Below are positions 1-5,428 of a stretch of DNA of 58,748 bases, piece after piece. Origin of the DNA: Kiritimatiellia bacterium (lineage in GTDB: Bacteria > Verrucomicrobiota > Kiritimatiellia > JAQICX01). The number at the start of each line of letters is the position of its first letter. Position 1 is the stretch's first letter. The position numbers and the translations under genes were made by a program. The notes under the pieces are model-generated. The model had not been told where the DNA came from and did no database searches. It worked only from the letters and a program-made list of their open reading frames with translations. The stretch is taken from contig JAQICX010000002.1 of assembly GCA_027858345.1 (NCBI GenBank), forward strand, positions 1 to 58,748, in the 5' to 3' direction.

Positions 1-573
1 CGTGAGATACGTCTTTCAGAACGTTTTTTCTATCAGAAAATAAAAGATATTTATACCACGAGCATAGATTATAACCCAAAAGATGAAAAGAGTATTGAGT
101 TTTTCAAAATTGTGCAAAATAAATTGCTTTGGGCAATAAGCAGTCAAACGGCAGCTGAATTAGTCTATCGCAGAACAAATGCATCTCTTCCTCTAATGGG
201 AATGCAATCTTATGACAAGAAAAATGTTGTAAAAATAAGAAAATCCGATGTCAGTATCGCCAAAAACTATTTGAATGAAGATGAAATTAAATTACTCGGA
301 TTGCTTGTAGAACAATACTTAGCCTTTGCTGAAACTATGGCACAGCAACATACGCCGATGTATATGGCAGATTGGATTAAGCAATTAGATGTTATTTTAA
401 CAATGAATAAAAGAGAATTGTTAAGCCATGCAGGTGAAATATCACATCAAAAAGCAATTGAAAAATCGTCTGAAGAGTATAATAAATATATATATGAACA
501 GAAACAGATTGAAAAAGAGCAAAATCTTAAAGAACTAGAACAAGACATAAAAAAGATAAAAGCAAAAAAATGA
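1..573 (+). CDS. RhuM-family (virulence RhuM/Fic-DOC N-terminal-like) protein, 5' end outside window
   Basis: Frame 1 is open from base 1 (REIRLSERFFYQKIKDIYTTSIDYNPKDEKSIEFFKIVQNKLLWAISSQTAAELVYRR...KIRKSDVSIAKNYLNEDE...PMYMADWIKQLD); this pattern is typical of RhuM proteins. Stop overlaps the next start by 4 nt. Confidence 0.8.
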   Translation, partial: REIRLSERFFYQKIKDIYTTSIDYNPKDEKSIEFFKIVQNKLLWAISSQTAAELVYRRTNASLPLMGMQSYDKKNVVKIRKSDVSIAKNYLNEDEIKLLGLLVEQYLAFAETMAQQHTPMYMADWIKQLDVILTMNKRELLSHAGEISHQKAIEKSSEEYNKYIYEQKQIEKEQNLKELEQDIKKIKAKK

Positions 574-3227
574 AATTAACTTTTGAATCAGACCTGCAAT
601 ATCAGCAAGAAGCTATAAAATCAATTACCGCATTGTTTGAAGGTCAACCACCTCAGGATTCTGTTGATGAATATAACTTCAAGAAAGAAGAAGGCATTTT
701 AAACTTGATCAACGGCATCGGCAACAAACTGGTATTGTCAGAAGGTCAGATTCTAAAAAACTTACAGGCAATACAGTCCGAGAACGAAGTTAATAAATCT
801 GCCGAGCTTGACGGAATGAACTTTTCCGTTGAGATGGAAACAGGTACAGGTAAAACTTATGTGTATTTGCGTACCATATATGAACTGTTTACTCAGTACG
901 GATTTAAAAAATTTGTCATTGTTGTTCCATCTGTGGCTATTCGGGAAGGTGTATTAAAGAATCTTGAAATCACTCACGAGCATTTTCAAAACCTGTACGA
1001 CAACTGCCCTATCCATTTTCAGGTATACGACAGTTCAAAAGTTTCTGCCCTGCGTGGTTTTGCTTCAGGAAATACAATTGAAGTATTAGTAATTAATATT
1101 GATTCCTTTGCCAAAGATGAAAACATCATTAACAAGCCAAACGATAAATTAAATGGTCAGAATCCCATTGGATTTATCCAGTCAACAAATCCTTTTGTAA
1201 TTGTTGACGAACCCCAGAATATGGAAACAGAAAAGCGTATTTCTGCAATTGAAAATTTAAATCCTCTTTGTACATTACGTTATTCAGCAACACATAAAAA
1301 CAAATATAATTTAACTTACAGCCTTAACCCTGTAAAAGCTTATGACTTGGGCCTAGTAAAGCAAATTGAGGTTGATTCTATTGTTGAAGAAAACTCATTT
1401 AATGATGCTTTTATATCAGTCGATGCTATCAAAGCAACCAAAACAAAAGTAACCGCAAAACTATCAATTAATGTAAATGACAAAGGTGCCGTAAAGAAAA
1501 AAGCCGTTAATGTAAAGGTTGGAGATGAGCTTTACAACCTTTCAAACGAACGCGAGATATATAAAGACGGTTACATTATTGAAGAAATAGATGCATCAAA
1601 CAACTGTATTTCTCTTTCAAATGGTAATATCCTTTACAAAGGAGACTCGCAAGGCGGATTGACAGATGAAGTAATGAAATTTCAGATTCAAAAAGCCATT
1701 GAAGAACATTTGAAAAAGGAGCTGCGCTTAAACCCAAAAGGCATAAAAGTCTTATCACTGTTTTTTGTTGACAAAGTTGCCAATTATAGGCAATACGATG
1801 CCGATGGCAATCCCGTAAAAGGTAAATTTGCAGAATGGTTTGAAGAAATCTACAAGGAATTCACTTCAAAACCAGTTTTTCTGGAACTAGATAAACACCC
1901 TGTAGCAGAAGTACATAACGGCTATTTTTCGCAGGATAGAAAAGGAAAACTAAAAGACACATCAGGCGAAACCAAGGCAGACGACGACACCTATAACTTA
2001 ATCATGAAAGATAAAGAAAAGCTTTTAGATATTCACACTCCCCTACGTTTTATCTTTTCACACTCTGCTCTGCGGGAAGGCTGGGATAATCCTAATGTAT
2101 TCCAGATTTGCACTCTAAACGAAACAAAATCAGAAATGAAAAAACGCCAAGAGATCGGGCGTGGTTTGCGTTTGTCGGTTAACCAAAACGGAAACCGTAT
2201 TTATGACCAGAATATAAACAAACTAACCATAATTGCTAACGAAGCTTATGACGATTTTGCAAAGACTCTACAGCAAGAAATAGAAGAAGATTGCGGAGTT
2301 GAATTTACAGGCAGAATTAAAAACAAAATAGAACGAACAGCTATCAAATATCGTAAAGGATTTGAAGTCGACCCACGTTTTCTTGAGATTTGGGAAAAAC
2401 TAAAAAAGAAAACCACCTATCGTGTTGATTATGATACAAACGATCTGATTGTAGTAGCAGCAAAAGCGATTAAAGATTTACCAGAAATTAAAGCTCCTTC
2501 AATCCGTTCAACCAAAGTATCGATTCAAATGAGCGACGAGGGCGTTGATACAAATTATGTTGGTGACAAAATAGAATCTTATGACGCTTATTCTTGGAAA
2601 ATTCCTGATGTTTTAGGCTACATTCAAAGCAAGTCCGAATTAACACGCTCTACAATTCATGAAATACTTGTAAAATCTGGACGCATCGGTGATATTCTAG
2701 TAAATCCTCAATTGTTCCTTGATTTATCTTCGCAAGCAATCAGAAGAACCTTGTATTCATTAATGATTGATGGAATCAAGTATCAAAAAATCGGTGACTC
2801 CAATTATGAAATGGCATTGTTCGAAGCACAGGAACTTGAAATTTATTTGAATGAATTCACTTTTAATCTTTCAGATAATTCAAAAACTATTTATGAAGAA
2901 TTTGTCCCATTAGACTCTAAAGTAGAGAGCCGATTTGCAAAAGACTGTGAAACAAGCGAACAAATAAGATTCTACTTCAAGCTCCCTAATTGGTTTAAAA
3001 TTCCGACACCGATTGGCAACTACAATCCAGACTGGGCAGTGGTTTTTGAAGACGATAAAAAAATCTATTTTGTAGCCGAAACCAAAGATACAGGTACAAT
3101 TCCAGTTGATGTGAAAAAACTGAAAACAGATGAACAATTAAAAATCAAATGCGGCAAAGCTCATTTCAAAGAATTTGAGAATTTGGAATATGAAGTAGTC
3201 AGCACAGTCAGTGAATTGATAAATTAG
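570..3227 (+). CDS. Type III restriction enzyme Res subunit (DEAD/DEAH helicase-nuclease)
   Basis: Walker A METGTGKTYVYLRT, VVDEPQNMET, SALREGWDNPNVFQICTL, RQEIGRGLRLSV; C-terminal nuclease-like NPDWAVVFED...FVAETKDT. Confidence 0.92.
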   Translation: MKLTFESDLQYQQEAIKSITALFEGQPPQDSVDEYNFKKEEGILNLINGIGNKLVLSEGQILKNLQAIQSENEVNKSAELDGMNFSVEMETGTGKTYVYLRTIYELFTQYGFKKFVIVVPSVAIREGVLKNLEITHEHFQNLYDNCPIHFQVYDSSKVSALRGFASGNTIEVLVINIDSFAKDENIINKPNDKLNGQNPIGFIQSTNPFVIVDEPQNMETEKRISAIENLNPLCTLRYSATHKNKYNLTYSLNPVKAYDLGLVKQIEVDSIVEENSFNDAFISVDAIKATKTKVTAKLSINVNDKGAVKKKAVNVKVGDELYNLSNEREIYKDGYIIEEIDASNNCISLSNGNILYKGDSQGGLTDEVMKFQIQKAIEEHLKKELRLNPKGIKVLSLFFVDKVANYRQYDADGNPVKGKFAEWFEEIYKEFTSKPVFLELDKHPVAEVHNGYFSQDRKGKLKDTSGETKADDDTYNLIMKDKEKLLDIHTPLRFIFSHSALREGWDNPNVFQICTLNETKSEMKKRQEIGRGLRLSVNQNGNRIYDQNINKLTIIANEAYDDFAKTLQQEIEEDCGVEFTGRIKNKIERTAIKYRKGFEVDPRFLEIWEKLKKKTTYRVDYDTNDLIVVAAKAIKDLPEIKAPSIRSTKVSIQMSDEGVDTNYVGDKIESYDAYSWKIPDVLGYIQSKSELTRSTIHEILVKSGRIGDILVNPQLFLDLSSQAIRRTLYSLMIDGIKYQKIGDSNYEMALFEAQELEIYLNEFTFNLSDNSKTIYEEFVPLDSKVESRFAKDCETSEQIRFYFKLPNWFKIPTPIGNYNPDWAVVFEDDKKIYFVAETKDTGTIPVDVKKLKTDEQLKIKCGKAHFKEFENLEYEVVSTVSELIN

Positions 3228-3518: not shown

Positions 3519-3647
3519 AAGAATTGGGGCTCCCTCCTATTTAGATCATTAACAAAACATAAATGATTTTAAGAATTTTTGAAATTATTTTTCTTTCTTG
3601 GAAAATTCTTCTTGTATTTAGTTAAATATTGATGTATTATTTACACC

Positions 3648-3672
3648 ATTTGATGCAACAGTTACATCAAAT
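3648..3672. promoter_or_regulatory. Inverted repeat ATTTGATG-CAACAGTTA-CATCAAAT
   Basis: 8-bp perfect arms, 9-nt spacer; upstream of the wHTH/NTase pair. Confidence 0.3.
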
Positions 3673-3716
3673 GATGCATAATTAGGGCTTACTGTTTAAT
3701 GTGAGAATGCCTGAGA

Positions 3717-3800
3717 TTTTGCTATAAGACACTTTCGCCTTTAGCTCGCGGTCCCGCCTTGCGGGATCCCGCTCTGCGGGATACTTGTTGCATAGCAAAA
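3717..3800. repeat. Nested palindrome: outer TTTTGCTAT/ATAGCAAAA arms with inner GCGGGA/TCCCGC hairpins
   Basis: ttttgctat...gcggtcccgccttgcgggatcccgctctgcgggatac...atagcaaaa. Confidence 0.5.
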
Positions 3801-3982
3801 GGTTAGGTGTTATCGCATTACAGATTCATAAATTGTATTAAATTTATATTATAGTCCTTCTGCAAGCTTTTGATCTAAATGTGCAAAAAAACCTTGCATT
3901 TTAGCATGCAAAAGAAAGCATTAATATTTACCAATACGTTAGTTATGAATTAAACAGGATGCCCTAATTAGGAGTTTAAAAT

Positions 3983-4312
3983 ATGATAGAAGTACTACTT
4001 GGATCAACAAGTTGCGAGCAAGTTTTGCTCTATATACTTAATAGAGAGGAAGGATATCCGCGAGAGATAGCCCGATTTTTCAATGTTGACTACAGACCAA
4101 TTCGTAATCAACTAGATAAACTTGAAGCAGGCGGCATTTTGTGCAGTCGTTCTGTAGGTCGAACACTTTTGTATTCTTTTAATCCCCGCTGCCCTTACTT
4201 AAAGGAACTAAAATCTCTTTTGCAAAAGGTCATGACGTTTTGCCCGGACGACATGAAAGAAATGCTTGTTATGAATAGGCGCAGACCCAGACGACAAGGA
4301 AAACCGTTGTGA
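3983..4312 (+). CDS. Winged-helix DNA-binding protein (ArsR-like)
   Basis: EGYPREIARFFNVDYRPIRNQLDKLEAGGILCSRSVGRTLLYSFNP is wHTH-like; 4-nt GTGA overlap with the next gene. Confidence 0.7.
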   Translation: MIEVLLGSTSCEQVLLYILNREEGYPREIARFFNVDYRPIRNQLDKLEAGGILCSRSVGRTLLYSFNPRCPYLKELKSLLQKVMTFCPDDMKEMLVMNRRRPRRQGKPL

Positions 4313-4860
4313 AACCAGTTGCCCAAATGACTAGAGCTGATCTTGGTGCATATGTTCAGGAGCACCTTAGAACAAAAGGTATTGATGTCGTTCTTAGCGG
4401 AGGAGCATGCGTTGCTATTTATAGCCATGACAAGTACGTTTCCATGGATTTGGATATGATCCACACCTCTCTAATAAAACCAAAACGCAAAAACATTCGT
4501 GAAGCGATGAGCGAACTAGATTTTATTGAAGATGGTCGTTACTTTAAACATGGTGATACAAATCTATTCGTCGAGTTTCCTCCAGGACCACCGGCTGTAG
4601 GTGAAGAGCCGGTAAAAGAAATTATAGAACGCCAAGAAACAACTGGAATCCTTAAAATTATATCTCCTACCGATTGCGTGAAAGATCGTTTAACAGGTTT
4701 CTATTATGACAACGATTTGCAATGTCTAGATCAGGCAATTCTAGTAGCACAAGATAATCAAGTTGATATTAACGAGGTTGAGCGATGGTCAAAGCAAGAA
4801 GGTGAACTGAAAAAGTTCAGCCAGATACGGGAAAAATTATGCAAAAACGAATTTCTTTAA
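4309..4860 (+). CDS. Nucleotidyltransferase-fold protein (DUF6036/AbiEii-like), GTG start
   Basis: VVLSGGACVAIYSHDKYVSMDLDMIH resembles the GG/S-x-DxD NTase core; translationally coupled to the wHTH gene. Confidence 0.6.
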   Translation: MKPVAQMTRADLGAYVQEHLRTKGIDVVLSGGACVAIYSHDKYVSMDLDMIHTSLIKPKRKNIREAMSELDFIEDGRYFKHGDTNLFVEFPPGPPAVGEEPVKEIIERQETTGILKIISPTDCVKDRLTGFYYDNDLQCLDQAILVAQDNQVDINEVERWSKQEGELKKFSQIREKLCKNEFL

Positions 4861-5060
4861 TTTTAACATGCCTTATTTTCTGTATAGCGCCAATACATTT
4901 TTTTGTCCCAGGCAACATTAGTCTTATACTTTTATTTAGTAGCATATTATTGATGCTCATTGTAGTTTTCATATACTTTACAAGCAAAGGAAACGTAAAG
5001 CTCAAACTCTTATTAATTGCAGTTGCAGGAGTGATCCTAAACAGTTTACTTACCCACTAA
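4839..5060 (+). CDS. Small two-helix membrane protein, hypothetical
   Basis: Hydrophobic 73-aa ORF overlapping the NTase gene by 22 nt. Confidence 0.5.
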   Translation: MQKRISLILTCLIFCIAPIHFFVPGNISLILLFSSILLMLIVVFIYFTSKGNVKLKLLLIAVAGVILNSLLTH

Positions 5061-5068
5061 GAATAAAT

Positions 5069-5428
5069 ATGATTAATATAACAAACAACAAAGAAGGTAA
5101 GAAGTTTCGAATGCGACCTCATATACTTTTTTGCATCTTAACAATATCAATATTTGTTGCATTCCATTTGAAAGTCTGCCCAAAATTCATTTCAATCTAT
5201 GCAGACTTGGGATTAACTTTACCACTAGCAACAAAGATAGTTACTTCATGGATATATATACCATTTGGAATATTTATGTTATTAATACCTGCAATAATCT
5301 CATTCCTAACCAAACGAAATTTCATCTCACGTTATTGTCTCGTCATCTTAGGAATGCTGGCATTTGCAACCATAAGCCTTATTCTGCCACTAGACATCAT
5401 AATGACAGGAATACCTACTAGTCAATAA
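5069..5428 (+). CDS. Small multi-helix membrane protein, hypothetical
   Basis: 119 aa, three hydrophobic segments, motif CPKFISIYADLGLTLPLATKIV; starts 8 nt after the previous stop. Confidence 0.55.
   Translation: MINITNNKEGKKFRMRPHILFCILTISIFVAFHLKVCPKFISIYADLGLTLPLATKIVTSWIYIPFGIFMLLIPAIISFLTKRNFISRYCLVILGMLAFATISLILPLDIIMTGIPTSQ

Follow-up and report, generated by a model that had tools for sequence, protein, structure and literature searches.

The AbiE systems (AbiEi/AbiEii; COG5340/DUF1814) are classified as type IV toxin-antitoxin (TA) systems, and AbiEi antitoxins are described in PMC7319586 as repressing their own transcription via inverted repeats. In MenAT1 (Rv0078B-Rv0078A), the partner of the nucleotidyltransferase (NTase) MenT1 is MenA1, a protein of 68 aa without a DNA-binding domain, and the system is without transcriptional autoregulation (PMC10435456, PMC11375011). 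PDC-M05 comprises an NTase and a HEPN protein (PMC12988326).

The genes analyzed here, from a 58,748-nucleotide stretch (the window) of contig JAQICX010000002.1 of a Kiritimatiellia bacterium genome, look like an unnamed relative of the AbiE/MenAT systems. A gene for a wHTH protein (positions 3983-4312, forward strand; 109 aa), a predicted autorepressor/antitoxin, is followed by one for an NTase-fold protein (4309-4860, forward strand; 183 aa, GTG start), the predicted toxin. As in AbiE, the wHTH gene precedes an overlapping NTase gene (divergent in one family of relatives), an inverted-repeat operator is predicted at the promoter of the pair, and the NTase has an S-x-D-x-D core. Unlike AbiE, the wHTH protein has no AbiEi C-terminal (COG5340-type) domain (the best PADLOC AbiEi match, in one relative, was 0.028), and the NTase is much shorter at about 180 aa. 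No AbiEii match to Pfam or PADLOC was detected in the NTase or the paired relatives scanned, and a weak one (7e-4) was found only in L058, a distant, unpaired cousin. Judged by these profiles, the pair is probably not an AbiE member. As in MenAT1, the NTase is short, and MenT1 is its best toxin match in Foldseek; the NTase fold is likewise combined with an S/T-x-D motif and a catalytic-type Lys and Asp, with S45, D47, D49, K125, and D136 invariant. DUF1814, the sequence family also considered for MenAT, did not match the NTase. Unlike MenAT1, the pair includes a DNA-binding wHTH partner and is predicted to be autoregulated. A homologous wHTH domain is shared with PDC-M05/MNT-HEPN; unlike in those systems, it is encoded by a separate gene and the NTase is of a different family. 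The initial annotation had proposed an AbiE/MNT-like TA or defence module: the resemblance of a two-gene wHTH/NTase-fold module to AbiE/MenAT is upheld, and the sequence definitions of AbiE and MNT/HEPN do not fit.

A wHTH-NTase gene pair and its relatives

The initial annotation had described a four-gene cassette at 3983-5428, in which the pair is followed by two membrane ORFs, TM73 (4839-5060; 73 aa) and TM119 (5069-5428; 119 aa). Its coordinates are exact for all four ORFs, as are the GTGA start-stop overlap of the wHTH and NTase ORFs (4309-4312), the 22-nt overlap of the NTase ORF with TM73, the 8-nt gap between TM73 and TM119, and the placement of GGACVAIYS..KYVSMDLDMI in the second ORF. 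The restriction locus that it noted nearby consists of a RhuM fragment (112-573) and, after it, a type III Res (570-3227). The close spacing of the four ORFs favors a single cassette with membrane effectors. Nevertheless, comparative data contradict such a cassette and make it very improbable: the membrane ORFs are private to this genome, and a search of 17 related stretches recovered neither of them nor Res. No convincing homolog of either membrane ORF was found anywhere searched; TM73 has no credible one and TM119 showed only weak transmembrane similarity to open frames of 280-500 residues, resembling its PilC/GspF matches. Neither the membrane ORFs as conserved effectors nor the type III restriction-modification (R-M) system as a linked partner was retained, and the membrane ORFs are probably unrelated neighbors of the pair. 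A defence island also fails as the general context, as relatives lie alone among unrelated chromosomal genes or with other plasmid TA genes. No third gene is conserved next to the pair in relatives. Comparison comes close to showing a two-gene autoregulated module.

With regard to the restriction locus, we observed that a RhuM-type frame at the end of another contig, C72, apparently runs on into the first positions of JAQICX010000002.1. If so joined, the methyltransferase-like ORF of C72, RhuM, and Res (L022 12566-15005 on C72 and 1-3227 here) probably belong to a single type III R-M locus that the assembly has divided. Upstream of that DNA methyltransferase-like ORF, C72 carries a 172-bp NTase fragment (L022 10921-11092) that is 98.8% identical to 4410-4581 and may represent a duplication connected with the acquisition of the R-M locus.

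Close NTase relatives (54-71% identity) were identified in 14 of 193 genomes of the class, this one included, with named records being Lentisphaerota and Kiritimatiellae MAGs; an NTase profile search also reached further genomes of the same phylum. Plasmid relatives were identified in Sulfurospirillum and Sulfurimonas (Campylobacterota), Bdellovibrio, and Leptospira. One viral contig carries a relative; a phage-borne origin was rejected, because none of 50,697 phage records matched and viral sequence was limited to this one contig. Pairing was checked in 41 fetched stretches, in which 30 NTases are essentially intact. In all 30 a wHTH gene adjoins the NTase gene, upstream on the same strand in 22 and divergently in 8, the latter all from one family of the same phylum; the wHTH gene is cut by a contig end in one case (L026) and in two pieces in another (L042). 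Stretches without a wHTH gene contain NTase fragments. Thus, the counter-evidence that the initial annotation had named, NTase homologs consistently lacking a wHTH partner in housekeeping contexts or a prediction without an NTase fold, was not encountered. The 4-nt wHTH-NTase overlap is found at the Kiritimatiellia locus and in most co-directional relatives. Both ORFs represent conserved genes that share 52-84% identity between genera and keep dozens of residues invariant, and between two related copies dN/dS is about 0.04 for the wHTH and about 0.13 for the NTase.

The distribution of the pair is patchy, with decayed copies, and its plasmid neighbors include Phd/YefM-PIN, HigBA, and HepT genes. 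In plasmid records, of which those from Leptospira are largely clonal, coverage of at least 80% was seen for the wHTH in 42 of 42 and for the NTase in just 17 of 42. In the Leptospira plasmids L104, L105, and L107, the wHTH was seen to stay intact and the NTase to be often disrupted.

Distant NTase cousins of 195-215 aa (L058-L072; GGSAVEFYTEGAYMSGDID) were excluded from the family; no wHTH partner was found in the three of these loci searched (L058, L059, and L067). At least one of the cousins has an adjoining small ORF with a WEEWKxxRxAxR segment and another carries such a segment C-terminally; perhaps these represent another two-part system.

Features of the two proteins

The NTase (4309-4860) has no match in Pfam, NCBIfam, or PADLOC, and a sequence-based search of the PDB returned only chance matches. 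An NTase fold, as the initial annotation had proposed, was recovered by AlphaFold (AF2 model, pLDDT 86, pTM 0.83) and Foldseek, with PDB matches to 5uvd (5.9e-5), MenT1 in the MenAT1 complex (6e-4; 8an5_B, TM 0.56), ANT(2'')-Ia (9.6e-4), and LnuA (1.4e-3). Since these E-values are modest and TM-scores are about 0.5-0.6, they support the fold and do not decide the subfamily. The core motif is GG(A/S)CV...YxSxDLD, and residues invariant across 13 relatives are G31, G32, S45, D47, D49, E89, the block I117-S119-P-T-D-C-V-K-D-R-L128 (containing K125), and D136. The spacing of S-x-D-x-D is as in MenT3 (S78/D80) and MenT1 (T39/D41) (PMC10435456), and we infer that K125 and D136 correspond to the catalytic Lys and Asp of MenT (K137 and D152 in MenT1). 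The NTase also shows sub-threshold sequence similarity and a likeness in fold to DUF2204/ANT(2'')-like nucleotidyltransferases, families whose definition, unlike that of the pair, does not include a wHTH partner and whose Pfam cut-off is not reached; a literature search for DUF2204 returned no papers.

The wHTH protein (3983-4312) has weak Pfam matches and a PADLOC match to PDC-M05A (2.6e-10) that covers the wHTH part only. Its AF2 model, whose closest Foldseek folds are ArsR/MarR-type repressors, comprises within 109 aa only the wHTH, two C-terminal helices, and a tail. This tail is conserved and arginine-rich (RRRPRRxGKPL), and divergently arranged copies keep it (as RRRPRAKDKPV), which suggests that it is selected as protein and not as DNA for the NTase start.

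Predicted promoter and operator, and a MITE-like insertion

A sigma70-type promoter of the pair is predicted at 3612-3640 on the forward strand (-35 TTGTAT at 3612-3617, a 17-bp spacer, and -10 TATTAT at 3635-3640). The predicted operator (3630-3679) comprises TGATGYA at 3630, 3651, and 3672, a spacing of 21 bp, with inverted TACATCA at 3663. Short repeat and palindrome arrays also occur upstream of the wHTH gene in relatives, where they differ with the recognition helix: helix YRPIR accompanies TGATGCA/TGCATCA, which also forms arrays upstream of three relatives with the same helix as this locus (L024, L025, and L027); LYGIQ accompanies ACCAA..TTGGT, LNPIQ/LAPIQ accompanies TGACC/GGTC, and PDSIQ accompanies TGTCAGA/TCTGACA. 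Taken one by one, about half of the loci had more repeats in their last 95 bp than dinucleotide shuffles did (P <= 0.05). In Mantel correlation, 6-mers shared between loci followed recognition-helix identity with r = 0.46 (P = 0.0002), compared to r = 0.05 (P = 0.21) in a control region, with overall relatedness as a partial confounder, given that the rest of the wHTH yielded r = 0.37. A promoter-like pattern, TTG-N20-YANNNT, which was chosen after inspection of the sequences, directly adjoins the first half-site of the operator at 11 of the 15 related loci (0.05 expected in shuffles) and was absent from the control region. Across nine divergent intergenic regions, GACY-N9-RGTC palindromes occur 16 times (0.17 expected), and 7 of the 9 contain two palindromes exactly 21 bp apart. 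These observations strongly support a model in which the wHTH protein would bind palindromes spaced by 21 bp at its own promoter and repress the operon.

The predicted promoter/operator site (3612-3679) is split from the wHTH and NTase genes by a 282-bp MITE-like interspersed repeat (3684-3965) with inverted AGGGC...GCCCT ends and an AATT target duplication (3680-3683 and 3966-3969). At least 54 matching pieces were identified in the genome, with ends AGGGCTTACTG and CAGGATGCCCT and target duplications of 4-5 bp in several copies. When the flanks are rejoined without the repeat (...CATCAAATGATGCATAATTAGGAGTTTAAAATATG), the spacing is as in relatives. An integron attC considered at 3690-3950 was superseded by this finding. 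The element would add 286 bp to the 5' leader and apparently disrupts neither the promoter and operator nor the ribosome-binding site or either of the ORFs.

Proposed function and rival readings

Collectively, our observations lead us to lean toward a compact two-gene, TA-type module that is negatively autoregulated and works in a manner like AbiE/MenAT, with toxicity and neutralization deduced by analogy. Its fold and residues suggest that the NTase would act as a Mg2+-dependent nucleotidyltransferase; when free, it would add nucleotides to a cellular target, for which analogy with MenT/AbiEii makes the 3' end of tRNA the most likely candidate. More speculatively, the wHTH protein would double as the antitoxin, limiting NTase synthesis and perhaps binding the NTase, with its arginine-rich tail a conceivable contact. 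The TA reading draws on the AbiE/MenAT analogy, the TA-rich plasmid surroundings, the patchy, decaying distribution, and a wHTH that survives better on plasmids than the NTase does, an asymmetry expected of antitoxin versus toxin. Fitting it poorly is the L. noguchii plasmid L042, where the wHTH reading frame is interrupted and the NTase is intact, because the wHTH would then not be an essential antitoxin; also against it are the divergent members without translational coupling and the antibiotic nucleotidyltransferases that Foldseek ranks nearly level with MenT1.

ANT(2'') and LnuA come close to MenT1 in their scores, which makes an enzyme of ANT(2'')/LnuA type under repressor control the main rival; here, the wHTH protein would be a ligand-released repressor and the NTase would inactivate or modify a small molecule. 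The ArsR/MarR repressors as closest wHTH folds and the divergent regulator and enzyme in one family are consistent with such an enzyme, as is a weak Pfam Aminoglyc_resit match (0.026), which was below the cut-off and confined to one relative. We nonetheless consider it unlikely, as both partners are very strongly conserved across phyla, the pair sits in plasmid TA clusters, the NTase has often decayed where the wHTH is kept, and a simple repressor leaves the invariant arginine-rich tail unexplained. Less probable still is a split relative of wHTH-MNT/HEPN (PDC-M05/MntA-HepT), in which the NTase would modify, in the manner of an antitoxin, a toxin that is either absent or located at a distance. 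The PDC-M05A match of the wHTH protein (to 5.6e-9 in relatives) and the NTase-HEPN composition of PDC-M05 point in this direction; against it, only the N-terminal region of the M05A profile is matched, by the wHTH gene and not by the NTase, and no conserved third gene that could be a HEPN partner lies beside the pair.

Within the favored TA reading, we tentatively suggest a more specific and rather doubtful model: an undescribed, phylum-crossing family of NTase TA systems with operonic and divergent forms, in which a minimal wHTH antitoxin would neutralize by inserting its invariant, arginine-rich C-terminal tail into the active site of the NTase, and operator half-sites may have diversified alongside the recognition helix, keeping co-resident copies insulated from each other.

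The analysis defines a compact, recurrent NTase/wHTH module that is absent from Pfam, NCBIfam, and PADLOC and whose operator code is readable. The Kiritimatiellia locus provides an example of a MITE-like element that separates a TA-type promoter from its own genes, and the wHTH-NTase pair offers a small, testable system for the control of NTase toxins.
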